Of a DNA stretch of 64,000 nucleotides, positions 1 to 8,560 are shown piece after piece. The position numbers and the translations under genes were made by a program. How positions within the stretch are numbered: position 1 is the stretch's first letter; every line of letters starts with the position of its first letter. Source of the DNA: Rhizobiales bacterium Y(2018) (GTDB lineage: Bacteria > Pseudomonadota > Alphaproteobacteria > Rhizobiales > Aestuariivirgaceae); the NCBI GenBank assembly GCA_005502925.1, contig SCPD01000004.1, positions 124,001 through 188,000 on the forward strand. Direction: 5' to 3'. The notes beneath the pieces were generated by a model, which saw only the letters and a program-made list of their open reading frames with translations, did not search any database and was not told the origin of the DNA.

Positions 1-974
1 GCGAAGCGGTCGAGGCTTCTGAGTGTCGCCGAAAGATCATTGCGCCAGATATTCCGGCCATTCACGACGCCGAGCGACAGCGTGAGATCGGACCGGGCCT
101 TGCCGAGCACGATATCCGCCTGCTCGGGCGCGGCGCAGAGATCGACATGGAGACCTGCGACCGGCAGCTTGAACGCAAGATCGGCATTGTCGCCCAAAGC
201 GCCGAAATAGGTGGTGAGCAAAAGCTTGAGGCCCGGCACCTCGCGCGCCAGCGTCTCATAGACAGTCTTGAAGGCGGCCTTGGCGGCAGGCGACAGATCG
301 AGCACCAGCGCCGGCTCGTCGATCTGCACCCAGGAGGCGCCGGCGCCGGCGAGCTTGCGCAAGATTTCCACATAGACGGGGAGAAGTCCCGGCAGCAGCG
401 ACAGAGGCTCGGCGCGGCCGTCCTTGACCTTGGCGAGGAGGAGATAGGTCACGGGCCCGATGAGGACCGGGCGCGTCTCGACGCCGAGCGCCTTGGCTTC
501 CAGGAAATCATCGAGAGGCTTGGTGGTGGTGAGTGCGAAGGCCTGATCGCTCGCCAGCTCCGGCACCATATAGTGGTAATTGGTGTCGAACCATTTGGTC
601 ATTTCGAGCGCCGGCACGCCCGTCGTCTCATGCTGATGGCCATGCGCGCAGGTTCTGGCCTCGCCACTGCCGCGCGCCATGGCGAAATAGAGATCGAGCG
701 GAACGCCGGAAGCCGGGCGCTCATAGATCTTCGGAATGGCGCCCACCAGCGCGCTCATATCGAGCATCTGGTCATAAAGCGAGAAGTCGTTGCTCGGTAT
801 GTGATCGAGGCCGCTCTTCTGCTGCAGCAACCAGTTCTCCTTGCGAAGATTCGTGGCCGTGCCGAGAAGCGCTTCAGCCGGACTCTTGCCGGCCCAGTAG
901 CTTTCAAGCGCGACTTTCAGCTCGCGCCGACGGCCGATACGCGGGAAGCCGAGATTGGCGGTTGTGATGGACAT
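1..974 (-). CDS. metE: Cobalamin-independent methionine synthase, N-terminal part (cut by window start)
   Basis: The visible first 324 residues match the N-terminal half of MetE, which transfers the methyl group of 5-methyltetrahydropteroyl-triglutamate to homocysteine without B12. The start MSITTANLGFPRIGRRRELK is typical of the family, as is the stretch around WVQIDEPALV. The catalytic zinc-site half lies beyond the window. The ATG at 974-972 is preceded by GGAGAAC at good spacing. A cobalamin riboswitch lies about 240 bases upstream on the same strand, so the gene should be switched off when B12 is plentiful and MetH can work. Identification is by recognised sequence; the gene runs off the left edge. 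Confidence 0.96.
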   Translation of the reverse strand, partial: MSITTANLGFPRIGRRRELKVALESYWAGKSPAEALLGTATNLRKENWLLQQKSGLDHIPSNDFSLYDQMLDMSALVGAIPKIYERPASGVPLDLYFAMARGSGEARTCAHGHQHETTGVPALEMTKWFDTNYHYMVPELASDQAFALTTTKPLDDFLEAKALGVETRPVLIGPVTYLLLAKVKDGRAEPLSLLPGLLPVYVEILRKLAGAGASWVQIDEPALVLDLSPAAKAAFKTVYETLAREVPGLKLLLTTYFGALGDNADLAFKLPVAGLHVDLCAAPEQADIVLGKARSDLTLSLGVVNGRNIWRNDLSATLRSLDRF

Positions 975-1216
975 GAGTTCTCCTGTTCCGGAAAGCACAA
1001 GGCTCCAGATTTTTTCATTGGTGGTGAAGGTGAAGTGCTGAGGCGCGTCAGGGCGGACCGCGATTGCGGTCGTATCGATCGCGGATACTGGAGCTCGTCT
1101 CGAAGATCATGGCGCACCTCGCTGATAAGCGGCGGCCAATGGAAGAAGCATGCGAGGCGGACCTATACCGGCACCAACCTGCAACACGCGCTCCCCTGGG
1201 ACACCCCGCCCTAGAA
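975..1216 (-). promoter_or_regulatory. metE leader between riboswitch and start codon
   Basis: This is 242 bases of untranslated leader between the aptamer and the metE start. It contains a perfect stem GACCGC-GATT-GCGGTC at 1056-1071 without a U-run, so it is not an obvious intrinsic terminator. The expression platform is therefore unresolved: it could act through Rho or through a structure reaching the metE ribosome binding site. Several open frames cross the region on both strands, but none resembles a protein. Confidence 0.4.
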
Positions 1217-1457
1217 CGTCTTCGTCACGGCAGGTCTCCTGGCTCGCGGGTCTAAACCTCGATCCCCCTTCCCGGCTTGCGGCCAGTGGATTCCGGATCG
1301 GGCTCGCCGCTTACAGTTGCGGGGGCAGCCGCGGCTTTGATCCCATCTTGGGCGTTTCCTTATCGCCAAAGTCGAACAACTTTGGCGGGAAGCACCGTGG
1401 ATCGCACCGCATTCCCTTTTTCGCCTCAGGCAAAAACCTGAGGACCGTGACAAGACG
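1217..1457 (-). promoter_or_regulatory. Cobalamin riboswitch upstream of metE
   Basis: Read on the minus strand, it has all landmarks of the adenosylcobalamin aptamer. The core CTGCCCCCGCAACTGTAAGC lies around 1308-1328. A CCACTGG...GGGAAGG element lies around 1268-1286. The B12 box AGCCAGGAGACCTGCC lies around 1230-1245. The closing P1 stem pairs plus-strand positions 1445-1457 with 1217-1230 almost perfectly. Orientation and position assign it to metE, a classic B12-repressed target in organisms that also have MetH. Confidence 0.95.
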
Positions 1458-1492
1458 ATCATCTCTCAGCCCGTCTCTCATGTCAACAACAT

Positions 1493-1508
1493 ATAAAGAT
1501 ATTCTTAT
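1493..1508. promoter_or_regulatory. AT-rich palindrome between metE and nrdA, candidate operator
   Basis: ATAAAGATATTCTTAT agrees with its own reverse complement at 12 of 16 positions and lies just outside the 5' end of the metE riboswitch, where the metE promoter is expected. It resembles the AAAGATAT-type palindromes I associate with ArsR-family regulators of methionine and SAM-cycle genes (SahR-like), but I recall that consensus only loosely. It could equally be a promoter element. Confidence 0.3.
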
Positions 1509-1533
1509 GTCTACATATGTCGGAGAAACTTTG

Positions 1534-1580
1534 CGACAATATATTGACGAGATGGGGCGACACACCACAATATACAGCCA
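1534..1580 (+). promoter_or_regulatory. Pair of NrdR-like boxes before nrdAB
   Basis: The first core, CAATATATTG at 1537-1546, is a perfect palindrome and matches the centre of the NrdR box. The second, CAATATACAG at 1568-1577, matches at 8 of 10 positions. Their centres are 31 bases apart, the three-helical-turn spacing usual for NrdR box pairs in ribonucleotide reductase promoters. The outer three bases of each box fit the consensus poorly. The pair ends where the riboswitch begins, so transcriptional repression by NrdR and riboswitch control would act one after the other. Confidence 0.6.
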
Positions 1581-1757
1581 TCACTGGTCTCCAGGAGTGA
1601 TTCTGGAGCTAAGAGGGAATCCGGTGCGAATCCGGGACTGCCCCCGCAACTGTTAGCGGCGAGTTGTTTGCGTTGTCGGTCACTGATGCGAGTTGCGCAT
1701 TGGGAAGGCCAGCAAACGACGTCGACCCGCGAGTCAGGAGACCTGCCCGTGATGTCT
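1576..1757 (+). promoter_or_regulatory. Cobalamin riboswitch upstream of nrdAB
   Basis: The aptamer shows GGGAATCCGGTGCGAATCC, then GGACTGCCCCCGCAACTGTT around 1635-1654, GTCACTGATG near 1678, TTGGGAAGG near 1700 and the B12 box GAGTCAGGAGACCTGCCC at 1730-1747. P1 pairs CATCAC near 1579 with GTGATG near 1749. The 3' segment is nearly the same as that of the divergent metE riboswitch, so one may be a copy of the other. The downstream genes encode an oxygen-dependent, B12-independent class I reductase, and B12 should repress them. Confidence 0.95.
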
Positions 1758-1848
1758 TTATCGTCCTCGGGCGGGGTGCTCCGAAGGTTCGCTTGCGCCC
1801 CGGTCGTTCCACGTGCCGGATTCCTGCGTCTGCGCTCCCTTGGCCCTG

Positions 1849-1872
1849 GCCCCCAACTTCTAGGGGTTAGCC
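1849..1872 (+). promoter_or_regulatory. Hairpin sequestering the nrdA ribosome binding site
   Basis: CCCC at 1851-1854 can pair with GGGG at 1863-1866, enlarged by GGC/GCC at the base. GGGG is the only Shine-Dalgarno-like stretch before the ATG at 1874. Such a masking hairpin downstream of a cobalamin aptamer would let the riboswitch control translation initiation. Base pairing is seen by eye only; no folding energy was computed. Confidence 0.5.
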
Positions 1873-1873
1873 A

Positions 1874-4732
1874 ATGTCTCTCATTCAAATCACCGATCGC
1901 CCGGAAGGCCGCGTCCTGCCTTTACCGTCGCGATCCAAGGAAGCCGCCGGCATGCTGGCCTTCCGCATCATCCGCCGCAACGCGTCGGTCTCGACCTTCG
2001 ATCCGGCCAAGATCGCCATCGCGATGACCAAGGCCTTTCTCGCCGTCGAAGGTTCGAGCGCCGCCGCCTCGCGCCGCGTTCATGAGATCGTCCGTGAGCT
2101 GACCGATCAGGTGACGGCGGCCCTGACGCGCCGCAGTGATTCCGACCGCGCCATGCCGATCGAGGAGATCCAGGACCAGGTCGAGCTCGCGCTGATGCGC
2201 GGCGGCCACCATAAGGTCGCCCGCGCCTATGTGCTCTATCGCGAGGAACGGGCACGGCTGCGCGCGGCGGAGAAGCCGGCGAGCCCCGCCGCCCCCGCAC
2301 TGCGGATCAAGTCGCCCTCAGGCCTCGACCGCGCGCTGGACGAAAACCGGCTTGCGGACCTGATCGCCAGCTCTTGCGCCGGGCTGGCCGGTGTCGAAGC
2401 CTTAGCCATTCTCGTTGAGACGAAACGCAACCTCTATGACGGGATGAGCGAGGACGAACTGGCGCTCGCCCAGATCATGGCGGCGCGCACCCTGATCGAG
2501 ACCGAGCCCAATTACGCCTATGCCAGCGCCCGCCTGCTGCTCGACAAATTGCGCGCCGAGGCCTTGAGCTTTCTGAGCGGTCATCCCGATCACGCGGATC
2601 AGGCCCAGATGGCCGAGCGCTACCACGCTTACTTCGCCGACTATATCGACCGCGGCATCGCGGCCGGCCTTCTCGATCCCGAGCTCAAGCGTTTCGATCT
2701 CGACCGGCTTGGCCGGGCGCTCAAGCCCGAGGCCGATTTCAATTTCCAATATCTCGGCCTGCAGACGCTTTATGACCGCTATTTCCTGCATGAGGGCGGC
2801 GTACGCTTCGAGCTGCCGCAAGCCTTCTTCATGCGCGTCGCCATGGGTGTGGCCTTGCGCGAGGTCGACCGCGAGGCGCGTGCCATCGAATTCTACGAGG
2901 TGCTGTCCGCCTTCGACGTGATGTGCTCGACGCCGACCCTGTTCAATGCCGGCACCTTGCGGCCGCAGCTCTCCTCCTGCTTCCTCACCACGGTGCCTGA
3001 CGATCTCGACGGCATCTTCAAGTCGGTGAAGGACAATGCGCTGCTCGCCAAATATTCGGGCGGCCTCGGCAATGACTGGACCCGGGTGCGGGGCCTCGGC
3101 GCCCATATCAAGGGCACCAACGGCAAGTCGCAGGGCGTCGTGCCGTTCCTGAAAGTCGCCAATGACACGGCCATCGCCGTCAACCAGGGCGGCAAGCGCA
3201 AGGGCGCCGTCTGCGCCTATCTCGAGACCTGGCATACCGACATCGAGGAATTCCTCGATCTGCGCAAGAACACCGGCGACGACCGCCGCCGCACCCATGA
3301 CATGAACACCGCCAACTGGGTGCCGGACCTGTTCATGCAGCGCGTCGAGGCCGACGGCTCCTGGACGCTGTTCTCGCCCGACGAGGTGCCGGATCTTCAC
3401 GACCTGACGGGCGCTGCCTTCGCCGCCGCCTATGAAGCCTATGAGGCCCAAGCCGCGGCGGGACGCATCAAGGTCTTCAAGCAGATGCGCGCACTCGATC
3501 TGTGGCGGCGCATGCTGACCATGCTGTTCGAAACCGGCCATCCCTGGATCACCTTCAAGGACCCGTGCAACCTGCGCTCACCGCAGCAGCATGCGGGCGT
3601 CATCCACTCGTCCAATCTGTGCACCGAGATCACCCTCAACACTTCCGACAAGGAGGTCGCGGTCTGCAATCTCGCCTCGATCAATCTCGCCAATCACGTG
3701 ACCGCCGAGGGCATCGATCACGAGCACCTGACTCGCAGCGTCACCGTGGCGCTGCGCATGCTCGACAATGTGATCGACGTGAACTTCTACACCATCCCTG
3801 AGGCGCGGTTCTCCAATCTGCGCCATCGCCCCGTCGGGCTTGGCCTCATGGGCTTCCAGGACGCGCTTTATCGCCAGCGTATTCCTTACGCCTCCGAGGC
3901 GGCCATCCGCTTCGCCGATGAAAGCATGGAGGCGATCTCCCATGCCGCCATCGGGGCCTCGAGCGATCTCGCTTCCGAACGCGGCCGCTATCCGAGCTAT
4001 GAGGGCTCGTTGTGGAGCCAGGGCATCCTGCCGCTCGATTCGATCGAGATCCTGAGCCGCGCGCGTGGCAAGCTCGATCTCGACCGCTCCTCGCGCCTCG
4101 ACTGGGCGTCCTTGCGTGAGCGGGTGCTGCAGCAGGGCATGCGCAATTCCAATGTCATGGCCATCGCCCCCACCGCCACCATCTCCAATATCTGCGGCGT
4201 CAGCCAGTCGATCGAGCCCGCCTATCAGAATCTCTACGTCAAATCGAACATGTCGGGCGACTTCACCATCGCCAATGCCGATCTGGTGCATGATCTGAAA
4301 GCCCGGGGCCTCTGGGACGAGGTGATGATCAGCGACCTCAAATATTTCGACGGCAGCCTCGGCGGCATCGACCGGGTGCCGGACGATCTCAAGGCGCTCT
4401 ACGCCACCGCCTTCGAGATCGATACGAGCTTCCTGATCGAGGCGGCGGCACGCCGGCAGAAATGGATCGACCAGGCGCAGTCGCTCAATCTCTATATCGC
4501 CAATCCCTCCGGCAAGAAGCTCGATGCGCTCTACAGGCTCGCCTGGAACCGGGGGCTCAAGACCACCTACTATTTGCGCTCGCTGAGCGCCACCCATGTC
4601 GAGAAGTCGACGCTGAAAGGAACCGACGGCAAGCTCAATGCCGTTTCCGTCGGCGCCGCCGCCGAACCGATCGAGCTCGCCGTGCCGCTCCTCTGCCCGA
4701 TCGACGATCCCACTTGCGAAGCCTGCCAATAA
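1874..4732 (+). CDS. nrdA: Class I ribonucleoside-diphosphate reductase, alpha subunit
   Basis: This 952-residue large subunit reduces ribonucleoside diphosphates using a radical supplied by NrdB. Residues about 25-125 form an ATP-cone, the allosteric activity site. The active-site triad is visible in NLCTE (Asn581, Cys583, Glu585). The redox cysteine pair is Cys369 (SSCFL) and Cys598 (AVCNL). The C-terminal tail [12 protein letters not shown] carries the cysteines that re-reduce the active site. Near residue 760, [11 protein letters not shown] is the usual class I signature. The gene starts just after the masking hairpin and is followed 17 bases later by nrdB. Regulation by B12 riboswitch and probably NrdR is inferred from the leader. 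Confidence 0.96.
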
Positions 4733-4749
4733 ACCTGGAGTACAAGAAC

Positions 4750-5895
4750 ATGAACACCCTCGACTGGTCGGAACCGACCGCCGCCGATGTCAGCCGCCGT
4801 CTGCATCCCGCTTTCGATAAGACGCCCAAGTCCGCGATCACTGACGCGACCGGGCTCGGCACCATCAACCGCTCAGGCGGACGGGTACGCGTCGACGACA
4901 AGGCGATGATCAACTGCCGCGCCGACGTCAACCAGCTGCTGCCGCTCAAATACCGTTGGGCCTGGGAGAAATATCTCTCGGGCTGCAACAATCACTGGAT
5001 GCCGACCGAAGTGTCGATGCAGGCCGATATCGCGCTGTGGAAGTCGAAGGATGGTCTGACCGATCATGAGCGCCGCGCGGTGAAGCGCAATCTCGGCTTC
5101 TTCGCCGCATCCGAGTCTCTGGTGGCGAACAACATCGTGCTCGCCATCTACCGCCATCTCACCAATCCCGAATGCCGGCAATATCTGCTGCGCCAGGCCT
5201 TCGAGGAGGCGGTGCACACCCATACGTTCCAATATATCGTCGAAAGCCTGGGTCTCGACGAGGGCGAGCTCTTCAACATGTATCGCGAAGTGCCCTCGAT
5301 CACCGACAAGGCGGCCTGGGCCTTGAAGCACACGCAGAATCTCGACGACCCCGGCTTCTCCACCGGAACGCCGGACAAGGACCGCGCCTTCCTGCGCGAT
5401 CTCGTCGCCTTCTATGTCGTCTTCGAGGGCATGTGGTTCTATACCGGCTTTGCGCAGATCCTCTCGCTCGGGCGGCGCAACAAGATGGTCGGCATCGCCG
5501 AGCAGTATCAGTACATCCTGCGCGACGAATCCATCCATCTGAATTTCGGCATCGACGTCATCAACCAGATACGCGTCGAGAACCCGCATCTGTGGAGTGC
5601 CGCCTTCCAGGACGAGATCCGCCAGATGCTGCGCGAGGCGGCCGAGCTCGAAAGCGCCTATGCCAAGGATACGATGCCGCGCGGCTTCCTCGGCCTGAAT
5701 GCCGGCCTGTGCGAGACATACATGCATTTCATCGCCAACCGCCGCTGCGCGCAGCTGGGTCTCGCACCGGTCTTCGCCGAGACGGAGAACCCCTTCCCCT
5801 GGATGTCGGAGGCGATGGACCTCAAGAAGGAGAAGAACTTCTTCGAGACCAGGGTGATCGAATACCAGAATGGCGGCGCGCTCGCCTGGGATTGA
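4750..5895 (+). CDS. nrdB: Class I ribonucleotide reductase, beta subunit with Phe at the radical position (class Ic-like)
   Basis: This 381-residue ferritin-fold subunit has metal ligands that line up with the Chlamydia trachomatis class Ic protein at a constant offset of 33: Glu122, Glu153, His156, Glu226, Glu260, His263. The radical-tyrosine position (E-x2-H-x3-Y in E. coli) reads EAVHTHTF, so Phe160 replaces Tyr. The first ligand is Glu rather than the Asp of E. coli. Tyr162 corresponds to Chlamydia Tyr129. Both substitutions mark enzymes that store the oxidising equivalent in a Mn/Fe centre instead of a tyrosyl radical. The family call is firm; metal content is inferred. It forms an operon with nrdA. 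Confidence 0.94.
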
Positions 5896-5968
5896 GCGCC
5901 CGTGTCTCAGGTCCGCGACGGAATGTCGGTTTTGAGACCGACCCGCCGCCACCTCTATGCTTGAGTAT

Positions 5969-6157
5969 CTTTGTTCAAGGTGCCGGCCCGAGCGATCGGG
6001 CCGGATAATTGGGAAGCCGGTGTGAAACCGGCACTGCCCCCGCAACGGTAAGGTAGCGCAACCCGCGGCAATGGCCACTGGATGATCCATCCGGGAAGGC
6101 GCCGCGGCGATCCGCAAGGATCCGCTGCCAAGTCCGGAAACCAGCCAGGAACATAAG
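5969..6157 (+). promoter_or_regulatory. Cobalamin riboswitch upstream of the Rieske demethylase genes
   Basis: The leader contains GGGAAGCCGGTGTGAAACC, then CACTGCCCCCGCAACGGTAA at 6032-6051, GGCCACTGG near 6073, CCGGGAAGGCG near 6091, and the B12 box AAGTCCGGAAACCAGCC near 6130-6146. CTTTGTTC at 5969-5976 can close P1 with GAACATAAG at 6149-6157. The 92 bases between aptamer and start hold GGCTGC/GCAGCC inverted segments and a CTCCTCC stretch that could take part in the expression platform. No other gene starts nearby, so it must act on the oxygenase operon. Confidence 0.94.
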
Positions 6158-6249
6158 TCGATGGGCTGCGGCGGGCGGTCAGACGGTGAAGGCCGCGCTT
6201 TCCAAGAAGCGACGGCAGCCGGCTCTCCTCCATCTCACTTCATCGATCG

Positions 6250-7521
6250 ATGCAACTCAAGCAGCGGGTCGATGCGATGATGAACAAACGAATGGATATG
6301 CTGTCAAGGCTCGAAGGCCGGCAGCCCGAGATGAGCCTCCCCCGGGAATTCTATGTCGATCCGGATTATTTCCAGATCGACCTCGACGAGATCTGGTACC
6401 GCGAATGGCTGTTCGCCGGCCATGAATGCGAGGTGGCGAAGCCCGGCAGCTATTTCACGCTCGATGTCGGCGCCTATTCCGTCATCGTGACCAGAGCGCG
6501 CGACGGCCGGATCCGCGCTTTGCACAACAGCTGCCGTCATCGCGGCTCGCGCGTCTGCACCGCCGCCAAGGGCACCGCCGCGCGTCTCGTCTGCCCCTAT
6601 CACCAATGGACCTATGAGCTCGACGGCCGCCTGATGTTCGCGCGCGACATGGGGCCAGGCTTCAAGACCGAGCAATATGGCCTGAAGCCCGTCCATTGCA
6701 AGACGGTCGGCGGCTATGTCTTCATCTGCCTGGCCGATGAAGCGCCCGATTTCGAGACCTTCCGCACCGTCGCTTTGCCCTATATGGCACCGCATCATCT
6801 GGGGCGAACCAAGGTCGCTTGCGAAACGACCATCATCGAGAAGGGTAACTGGAAGCTCGTCTGGGAAAACAACCGTGAATGTTATCACTGCTCCGCCAAT
6901 CATCCCGAGCTCTGCCGCACTTTCCCCGAACGGCCGACACTGACCGGTGTCGACGGCGCCGACAGCGATCCCGAGATCCAGGCGCATTGGCAACGCTGCG
7001 AGGCAGCCGGTCTCCCCAGCCGCTTTGAGATCAGCGGTGATGGCCAGTACCGCACCATGCGGGTGCCGCTCCTGCGCGACACGACGAGCTTCACCTTGAC
7101 CGGCAAGCCCGCGGTCAAGCGCCCGCTCGGCGGCATCGCCACCGAACGCATCGGATCGATGCTGCTCTATCATTATCCGACGACCTGGAACCATCTGCTC
7201 GGCGACCATGCGACGACCTTCCGGGTGCTGCCGCTCGGACCGAAGGAGACCCAGGTCACCACCAAATGGCTGGTGCATGAGGAGGCCGTCGAAGGCGTCG
7301 ACTATGACGTCACCGAGCTGACCCATGTATGGAACCAGACCAACGACCAGGATCGCCGCATCGTCGAGGAGAATCAGCGCGGTATCAATTCGCCGGCCTA
7401 TGAGCCGGGGCCTTATGCACCCGACCATGAAAGCGGCGTCGTCCAGTTCGTCGACTGGTATTGCAATGCTTTGGCGCCGCGCCTGAAAGGCGGTGGCGTC
7501 AGGCTGAGCCGTGTCGCGTGA
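6250..7521 (+). CDS. gbcA: Rieske non-heme iron oxygenase, glycine betaine demethylase type (GbcA-like)
   Basis: This 423-residue oxygenase has a Rieske [2Fe-2S] site formed by Cys95-x-His97 and Cys115-x2-His118. The mononuclear iron region is NNRECYHCSANHPE, with His213 and His218 as ligands. That stretch is characteristic of the glycine betaine/stachydrine demethylase group. Such enzymes hydroxylate an N-methyl group, releasing formaldehyde; GbcA turns betaine into dimethylglycine. The start is uncertain: ATG 6250, ATG 6277/6280 or the later ATGs at 6292 and 6298 are possible, and none has a strong Shine-Dalgarno. It partners with the overlapping reductase gene. Substrate is inferred; no dimethylglycine or sarcosine genes follow in the window. 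Confidence 0.85.
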   Translation: MQLKQRVDAMMNKRMDMLSRLEGRQPEMSLPREFYVDPDYFQIDLDEIWYREWLFAGHECEVAKPGSYFTLDVGAYSVIVTRARDGRIRALHNSCRHRGSRVCTAAKGTAARLVCPYHQWTYELDGRLMFARDMGPGFKTEQYGLKPVHCKTVGGYVFICLADEAPDFETFRTVALPYMAPHHLGRTKVACETTIIEKGNWKLVWENNRECYHCSANHPELCRTFPERPTLTGVDGADSDPEIQAHWQRCEAAGLPSRFEISGDGQYRTMRVPLLRDTTSFTLTGKPAVKRPLGGIATERIGSMLLYHYPTTWNHLLGDHATTFRVLPLGPKETQVTTKWLVHEEAVEGVDYDVTELTHVWNQTNDQDRRIVEENQRGINSPAYEPGPYAPDHESGVVQFVDWYCNALAPRLKGGGVRLSRVA

Positions 7522-8560
7522 GACGGCGATGGACATGTCGCCCAGGAACGACCGCACGCAGCTCCTGATCTGCCTGTCGGCCATAACGGAAGCGCCGGGG
7601 GTGAAGACTTTCACCTTCGAGACCGCGGAACACCACTGGTTTCGCTACGCACCAGGCCAGTTCATGACCTTCGAGCTGCCCGAGGCCGGTCCGGATGTGC
7701 TGCGCAGCTACACGCTGTCCTCCGCACCATCGCGGCCTTTCACCGTATCGGTGACCGTGAAGGCGCAAGCCGAGAGCATCGGCAGCCGCTGGATGCTCGA
7801 CCATCTGAAGCCCGGCATGCGGCTCAAAGCGCATGGACCAGCGGGAGCGTTTACACTCCTGCACCACCCGGCGGAAAAATATCTGTTCATCTCGGCCGGC
7901 TCCGGCATAACGCCCATGATGTCGATGACGCGCTGGCTCTATGACGAGAGCCGCGCCGCCGATATCGCCTTCATCCACGCGGCGCGGTCTCCTGGCGATA
8001 TCATCTTCCGGGACGAGGTCGAATGGATGGCCGGCCGCATGCAGCCTTTCCGCCTCGCCTGGGTCGTCGAGGATCCCTCGTCGCGCTTCTGGCCGGGTTT
8101 TCGCGGACGGATTTCGGCCAGCCTTCTGGCGGAAATGGCGCCCGACTTCCGTGACCGTGAAATCTTCTGCTGCGGCCCCGAACCCTTCATGGCGGCGATC
8201 CACGCCATTCTCACACATGCCGGCTTCGACATGCGGCATTATCACGAGGAGAGCTTTCACCCGGCAGCCTTGGAAGTCCTGATCGCCTCGCCGGCCGAGA
8301 CGTCTCGGCTGGTCTTCGCGCAAGCCGGTGTCGAGCACGACTGCCGGCCCGGCGAGACGGTCCTGATGGCGGCGAAGAGCATCGGCATCAACATTCCGAG
8401 CGCCTGCCAGTCCGGTCTATGCGGCACCTGCCGGCTGCGCTGCCTCGAAGGCCAGGTGGACATGCAGCACAATGGCGGCATTCTCGATGAGGAGATCGCC
8501 GAGGGCTACATCCTGGCGTGCTGTTCGACGCCCAAGGGCCGGGTTGTCATTGAGGGGTAA
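7511..8560 (+). CDS. gbcB: Oxygenase reductase component with FAD, NAD and plant-type [2Fe-2S] domains (GbcB-like)
   Basis: This 349-residue protein passes electrons from NAD(P)H to the Rieske oxygenase. An FAD-binding domain (RSYTLSS near residue 60) is followed by a nucleotide-binding domain (FISAGSGITPM near 125, CCGPEPFM near 220). The C-terminal ferredoxin domain has CQSGLCGTC and a last Cys near CCSTP. This order matches GbcB. The GTG at 7511 overlaps the end of the oxygenase gene; ATG 7529 is an equally reasonable start just after the stop. Tight coupling with the oxygenase and the shared riboswitch indicate one operon. Confidence 0.86.
   Translation: MSRETAMDMSPRNDRTQLLICLSAITEAPGVKTFTFETAEHHWFRYAPGQFMTFELPEAGPDVLRSYTLSSAPSRPFTVSVTVKAQAESIGSRWMLDHLKPGMRLKAHGPAGAFTLLHHPAEKYLFISAGSGITPMMSMTRWLYDESRAADIAFIHAARSPGDIIFRDEVEWMAGRMQPFRLAWVVEDPSSRFWPGFRGRISASLLAEMAPDFRDREIFCCGPEPFMAAIHAILTHAGFDMRHYHEESFHPAALEVLIASPAETSRLVFAQAGVEHDCRPGETVLMAAKSIGINIPSACQSGLCGTCRLRCLEGQVDMQHNGGILDEEIAEGYILACCSTPKGRVVIEG

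Follow-up and report, generated by a model that had tools for sequence, protein, structure and literature searches.

The locus described here places three cobalamin riboswitches in front of metE, nrdAB and a gene pair resembling gbcAB, and the question that it raises is why the third target, a Rieske oxygenase operon, should share the control of the other two. 'Isozymes of B12-dependent enzymes' form a class in B12-riboswitch regulation (main-text passages of PMC3766115), and metE is described as an isozyme of a B12-dependent enzyme (main-text passages of PMC2211319). A first-pass annotation of this DNA had suggested that the oxygenase is likewise either a substitute for, or a feeder of, B12 metabolism. 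The results given below make it likely, in our view, that a B12-repressed GbcAB-type N-demethylase replaces the MttB/MtgC route when cobalamin is scarce.

Cobalamin riboswitches of the cluster

The window (the whole stretch of DNA analysed, 64,000 nucleotides, C32:124001-188000 of the 7.1 Mb genome G000) was scanned on both strands against Rfam using cmscan. Three matches to any Rfam family were found at gathering level, each of them to RF00174 (cut-off 31.5 bits) and each full length (model positions 1-189). The elements and the genes that they face are:

1..974, minus strand: metE, 5' part, B12-independent methionine synthase (Pfam Meth_synt_1, 389 bits)
1212..1464, minus strand: cobalamin riboswitch aptamer facing metE (RF00174, 122.1 bits)
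1568..1764, plus strand: cobalamin riboswitch aptamer facing nrdAB (RF00174, 134.1 bits, E 1.5e-33)
1874..4732, plus strand: nrdA, class I ribonucleotide reductase alpha subunit (NF005544, 1657 bits, cut-off 965)
4750..5895, plus strand: nrdB, class I ribonucleotide reductase beta subunit (NF005550, 675 bits, cut-off 309)
5961..6163, plus strand: cobalamin riboswitch aptamer facing the Rieske N-demethylase operon (RF00174, 116.0 bits; gbc sequence subtype)
6250..7521, plus strand: gbcA-like Rieske oxygenase of the quaternary-amine N-demethylase type, 423 amino acids (Pfam Rieske and Ring_hydroxyl_A; NF058607 GbcA)
7511..8560, plus strand: gbcB-like reductase with FAD, NAD and 2Fe-2S domains (Pfam; NF058606 GbcB, 372 bits, cut-off 500)

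The three riboswitches and their targets were thus as the first-pass annotation had described them. The CCGCAAC motif, the CACTG element and the B12 box are visible in all three aptamers, and the third, whose covariance-model score had been singled out for checking, lay 84 bits above the cut-off and not below it.

The whole genome contains seven RF00174 matches, the following four being outside the window:

C32:120860-121055, plus strand: fourth cobalamin riboswitch, upstream of a second Rieske oxygenase (RF00174, 107.2 bits)
CbiX/BtuF-like region (region read by eye): RF00174 element outside the cluster
CbtA gene: RF00174 element outside the cluster
nitroreductase-family gene, read as BluB: RF00174 element outside the cluster

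The fourth riboswitch ends 2.9 kb to the left of the window, beyond the far end of metE, the open reading frame of which extends past the left edge of the window (seen in L019). The cluster therefore comprises four riboswitches in approximately 9 kb, two of the four being on Rieske genes.

B12-dependent counterparts in the same genome

A search of G000 with PF02867 returned NrdA and two class II NrdJ-type reductases (at C11:672395, with an open frame of 1254 amino acids, and at C33:164242), both above the TIGR02504 cut-off on the stretch given, in agreement with the earlier proposal of a low-B12 regulon in which NrdAB stands in for NrdJ. The companion proposal that MetE substitutes for MetH was not borne out in G000, and MetH was rejected as the partner of MetE there, no MetH-sized match to PF02310 or PF02574 being present. 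PF02310 matched an MtgC-like corrinoid protein, the gene of which adjoins a DUF1638 gene, and three further proteins in open frames of 583, 691 and 806 amino acids, while PF02574 matched three genes with frames of 338-379 amino acids. One of these three (C18:32606) scores 463 bits on NF005718 (cut-off 338), which identifies it as a betaine-homocysteine methyltransferase, and is 57% identical to the S. medicae gene taken as mtgE; this MtgE orthologue is on the same contig as the MtgC-like gene. Because an MtgC-like protein and an MtgE orthologue are present and a MetH-sized match is not, metE is more likely to be the back-up of a methionine synthase divided between MtgC and MtgE than of MetH.

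Seven proteins of the MttB family (PF06253) were detected in G000. The MttB protein at L024:7810-9372 is 71-73% identical to an mtgC-adjacent MttB gene in four of the five other genomes fetched (such a gene was seen in L202, L203, L204 and L206, and none in L205). About 4.7 kb from this MttB, the MtgB orthologue of G000, is a protein of 820 amino acids with DAO, FAO_M and GCV_T domains, the domain make-up of dimethylglycine/sarcosine dehydrogenases, and it may function as one of these. MtgD was not found in the stretches of G000 that were searched. Neither methionine synthesis nor glycine betaine demethylation can do without MtgC and MtgD in Ruegeria pomeroyi (sections of PMC12478193 consulted), and by extension MetE and GbcAB would back up both jobs of one corrinoid protein.

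Identity of the Rieske oxygenase operon

The Rieske protein of the window passed both Pfam cut-offs (Rieske, 58.4 bits against 20.3; Ring_hydroxyl_A, 132.1 bits against 24.9). The best NCBIfam matches of the oxygenase and the reductase were GbcA and GbcB, both below the equivalog cut-offs (524.7 bits against a curated cut-off of 670 for the oxygenase on NF058607), so the name gbcAB given in the first-pass annotation holds at the level of the family and is used provisionally here, as gbcAB-like. The solved chains closest to the Rieske protein are 3n0q, which is identical to the protein encoded by a gene of Ruegeria sp. TM1040, and 4qup and 3vca, both of which we take to be the stachydrine demethylase Stc2. 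A Stc2-type homologue in S. meliloti RCAM1750 (L230), adjoining genes labelled stc4 and stc3, scored 498 on the GbcA model; since this is close to the 525 of the window protein, and both are below 670, the model leaves the substrate unsettled. The family matches tentatively point to glycine betaine or a close quaternary amine as the probable substrate.

Distribution of the riboswitch on gbcA homologues

Contigs were scanned with an alignment of six homologues, and the best 80 of 586 confirmed candidates (61-69% identical) were examined. A mismatch-tolerant motif scan located a riboswitch upstream of the gbcA homologue in 50 of these best 80 loci. A profile built from 60 switches detected none in the other 30; the same profile recovered all seven RF00174 matches of G000, including that of bluB, the sole one outside the training set, and the possibility that switches had been overlooked in the 30 loci was therefore rejected. 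Among nearer relatives, the orthologue has RF00174 upstream in G003, G007 and G023 and lacks it in G033 and G057. A total of 124 plasmid records carried a match, and of 11 regions fetched RF00174 was upstream in seven, from Sinorhizobium (two), Shinella, Phaeobacter, Tritonibacter, Cereibacter and Ruegeria sp. TM1040, and was not upstream in the remaining four (Paracoccus versutus, Agrobacterium tumefaciens 1D1609, Sagittula stellata and the Stc2-type locus). The TM1040 element (109.7 bits) precedes the 3n0q gene itself. The switch persists at gbcA identities as low as 56-57% and occurs also on Rhodobacterales replicons. One of the loci (L080, JAHREI010000004.1) is titled Bacillus subtilis SK6B4, yet its gbcA gene hardly differs from the one in Pseudochrobactrum; it is probably a mislabelled or contaminated assembly.

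In the Rhizobiaceae the neighbours of gbcA are common to 10-13 switch loci and 19 switchless loci, and this sameness with and without the switch implies loss or gain of the switch at a single place. The tandem arrangement of the window, switch-nrdA followed by switch-gbcA, is repeated at four further loci (L053, L068, L069 and L078), with nrdA 75-76% identical to that of the window. In two genomes the switch and gbcA adjoin mtgC in divergent orientation (G328, mtgC at C31:180535 on the plus strand and switch at C31:180059 on the minus strand; G447, mtgC at C3:300664 on the minus strand and switch at C3:301713 on the plus strand). The L201 neighbourhood includes a DUF1638-like gene, a pterin-binding (MtgD-like) gene and a RACo-type corrinoid activator, with a formate-tetrahydrofolate ligase gene adjoining gbcB. 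The mtgC gene of L200 is known from the MtgC genome search, the simple gene caller having missed it.

A sequence subtype and its probable expression platform

The following features of the third riboswitch and its leader were distinguished:

6131-6146, plus strand: subtype box AGTCCGGAAACCAGCC
6164..6180, plus strand: P13-like hairpin, putative expression platform (arms 6164-6169 and 6175-6180, loop GGCGG)
6215..6220, plus strand: GCAGCC, a candidate alternative pairing partner for the 5' hairpin arm (6164-6169)

All 50 gbcA switches terminate in CGGAAACCAGCC, while 12 other switches of those loci carry GGAGACC (13 non-gbcA motif matches were obtained, of which L076, with six mismatches, was dropped as a chance match). 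Within G000 the variant box is confined to the two Rieske switches. Judged by these boxes, the gbcA switches are a sequence subtype of the cobalamin riboswitch. A strict pattern gave 26 matches in 397 genomes, with none for a backward-pattern control, and 25 of the 26 precede a gbcA-like or second-type Rieske gene. The exception is L156 (G126), where a canonical riboswitch is divergent from the gbc-type match and a metal-binding-type periplasmic protein (identified by eye) is encoded further on. It was also considered whether the gbc-type elements make up a sensor subtype of their own that reads another form of the cofactor, for example methylcobalamin (which MtgC would carry) and not adenosylcobalamin. 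Such a sensor would explain why these elements, with their constant box CGGAAACCAGCC and CAACGGT core, depart from the switches on metE, nrdA and transport genes in those genomes; we regard it as unlikely.

Of 83 leaders (80 with the feature; 78 distinct segments), nearly all, that of the window included, have after the box a stem of at least five pairs closing a GGYGG or GGGYG loop, and 0.7% of mononucleotide shuffles form such a hairpin. The stems are of 26 distinct kinds, and at five of the six pairs both sides vary. A conserved hairpin directly after the aptamer fits P13-L13. In the two Mesorhizobium-type leaders that were looked at (L070 and L057), the minimum-energy fold has a hairpin across the ribosome site and the start codon, and this predicted coverage suggests translational repression. 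On such a model, B12 would turn the operon off through P13 and sequestration of the ribosome site, and pairing of GCAGCC with the hairpin arm may provide the competing on-state.

Co-distribution of the switch with MtgC and MttB

Fifty of the 80 loci (25 with and 25 without the switch) were taken for comparison, corresponding to 23 switch and 25 switchless genomes (one locus was left out and two share one genome). MtgC (at least 399 bits, 78-87% identity) was found in all 23 switch genomes compared to one of the 25 switchless genomes (Fisher's test, 1.6e-12, a value that ignores kinship). The other 24 switchless genomes had only matches of 30-33% identity within open frames of 1255-1282 amino acids, the size of MetH. 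PF06253 (MttB) was present in exactly the 24 of the 48 genomes that were MtgC-positive. RF00174 was found somewhere in every one of the 48 genomes, switch and switchless alike, and MetH-sized matches (18/23 switch and 24/25 switchless genomes) did not split the groups. The one MtgC-positive switchless genome (G105, locus L113) is a Rhodospirillales metagenome-assembled genome with five MttB genes and a switchless gbcA homologue, and is an exception to the rule.

The comparison was extended to 397 genomes sampled evenly from the order, in which a gbcA homologue (E at or below 1e-140) was present in 46 and MtgC (E at or below 1e-60) in 126. The strict gbc-type pattern occurred in 23 of the 397 genomes, all of them gbcA-positive. 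The upstream stretch of the 23 gbcA-positive, pattern-negative genomes was then scanned by cmscan (upstream sequence being about 500 bases in G373 and about 1450 in G153), which added G368 and G432 and gave 25 switch and 21 switchless genomes among the 46; the strict pattern, having missed these two, was rejected as a sole census. MtgC was present in 23 of the 25 switch genomes compared to eight of the 21 switchless genomes (Fisher's test, 1.3e-4, uncorrected for kinship), and the two switch genomes in which MtgC was missed are 64% and 74% complete.

The switch label changes four times on one gbcA tree and eight times on the other. Five independent pairs differing in the switch were available, in which MtgC differed in the same way in 2.8, in the opposite way in 0.1 and not at all in 2.1 (averages); in seven independent pairs differing in MtgC, the switch differed in the same way in 3.2, in the opposite way in 0.0 and not at all in 3.8. 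With contrasts as few as these, sign tests are unable to reach 0.05. Among the eight MtgC-positive switchless genomes, the homologues of G033 and G293 group with the Stc2-type protein on the gbcA tree, while those of G312, G359, G413 and G436 lie in a clade without the switch. Second copies from G328 and G447 fall in this clade as well, the other copy in each of these two genomes having the switch. The remaining two, G265 and G347, belong to neither group and are exceptions. A gbcA homologue at E 1e-140 or better was present in only 31 of the 126 MtgC-positive genomes of the order sample, from which it follows that a GbcAB back-up is not general among them.

Proposed role of the third riboswitch and alternatives

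When cobalamin is plentiful, the third riboswitch would keep a B12-independent, oxygen-dependent N-demethylase off, and an MttB-family methyltransferase (MtgB) would demethylate substrates of this kind, with the corrinoid protein MtgC as the methyl acceptor. When cobalamin is low, the GbcAB-type enzyme would be made and would take over from this B12-dependent route. The gene trio would then be a low-B12 module in which MetE covers the methionine synthesis of MtgC/MtgE, NrdAB takes the place of NrdJ, and GbcAB that of MtgB/MtgC.

The same isozyme logic could apply to another substrate, the Rieske enzyme replacing an MttB-family methyltransferase for proline betaine, carnitine, gamma-butyrobetaine or some other compound. 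The Stc2 structures that make up two of the three closest solved chains (3vca and 4qup), the stc4- and stc3-labelled neighbours of the L230 homologue in S. meliloti, the seven MttB paralogues of G000 and a GbcA score below the cut-off are all in keeping with this, and it is a possibility of some weight, although a doubtful one: GbcA and GbcB are still the best family matches, the window protein falls outside the clade of the L230 protein, and the MtgB orthologue of G000 has the 820 amino acid DAO and GCV_T protein close by. The feeder role, the other half of the first-pass suggestion, would have the oxygenase made at low B12 so as to give one-carbon units (formaldehyde) to MetE or other synthesis, replacing no particular B12 enzyme. 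Here the control and neighbourhood common to the oxygenase and metE, and the formate-tetrahydrofolate ligase next to gbcB in L201, have to be set against the co-distribution. Because the presence of the switch follows MtgC and MttB, with MetH-sized matches in both groups, we hold a feeder role to be quite improbable and favour the substitute half of the suggestion, the enzyme replaced being the MttB/MtgC demethylase.

Shared ancestry or joint transfer might in principle account for the association, the switch-gbcA cassette and the mtg genes having been kept together historically with no regulatory meaning, and the small number of independent contrasts, too few for the sign tests, leaves room for it. 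Retention of the switch at gbcA identities down to 56-57% and on Rhodobacterales replicons, its absence at the syntenic locus in genomes that are without mtg genes, and the conservation of the platform hairpin with compensatory changes nevertheless make this very improbable.

Relation to known systems

Replacement of a corrinoid-dependent demethylase by the GbcAB-type enzyme would place the third riboswitch beside the known metE/MetH and nrdAB/NrdJ switches, with which it has the riboswitch family, the gene cluster and the logic in common. It differs from them in pairing a Rieske oxygenase with a multi-protein corrinoid methyltransferase, a pair not mentioned in the main-text passages of PMC3766115 and PMC2211319 consulted. 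GbcAB is the glycine betaine monooxygenase of Pseudomonas and Chromohalobacter (as cited in the sections of PMC12478193 consulted) and, like the window pair, consists of a Rieske oxygenase and a reductase. It is the best NCBIfam match of both window proteins, the likeness being one of family model, below both equivalog cut-offs. The B12-dependent partner system is MtgBCDE of Ruegeria pomeroyi (sections of PMC12478193), of which MtgC-, MtgE- and MttB-type genes are present in G000. In those sections of PMC12478193 the word 'riboswitch' occurs only in a reference title on glycine riboswitches, and GbcAB is presented as a distinct system found in other bacteria. The 3n0q gene of Ruegeria sp. TM1040 is behind RF00174, like the oxygenase gene of the window. 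The Stc2-type locus of S. meliloti RCAM1750 is unlike it: the 6.2 kb fetched contain no match to RF00174, and a LysR gene adjoins.

The logic of B12 repression of a B12-independent isozyme is accordingly known, while the Rieske/corrinoid demethylase pair looks new: it was not recognised in the portions of the open-access literature consulted. In many rhizobia and some roseobacters a cobalamin riboswitch precedes an oxygen-dependent demethylase of the betaine type, and those rhizobia with the switched demethylase that were tested have, in addition, a B12-dependent system that apparently serves the same end. Should the pair prove real, the supply of cobalamin would decide the fate of the methyl group, which would either be released as formaldehyde or enter folate and methionine by way of methyl-cobalamin, and the logic of metE and nrdAB would be extended to a catabolic pathway. 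The solved but unassigned structure 3n0q would also gain a regulatory context, and why one cell keeps both enzymes is directly testable in genetically tractable rhizobia.

A second Rieske gene and other observations

The second Rieske oxygenase of the cluster (G000:C32:120860-122381 with the fourth riboswitch; L005 and L048) is 34% identical to that of the window. Homologues 71-75% identical are present on rhizobial plasmids (9 of 17 records), adjoining metE in Shinella sp. WSC3-e and nrdHIEF in S. zoogloeoides. RF00174 was upstream in the same sense in none of the seven regions fetched from the 17 records, and this second gene was rejected as a general member of the regulon. The switch on the second-type Rieske gene was seen only in G000 and G003. 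A third Rieske oxygenase of G000 (L006:172-1407, minus strand, contig C11) is divergent from the CbtA riboswitch, the aptamer of which faces away from it. On a plasmid of Leisingera caerulea, a match to RF02510 (PYLIS_3, the pyrrolysine insertion sequence of mttB) was found at L223:6304-6404 inside an annotated MttB-family gene, and this gene adjoins a second-type Rieske gene.
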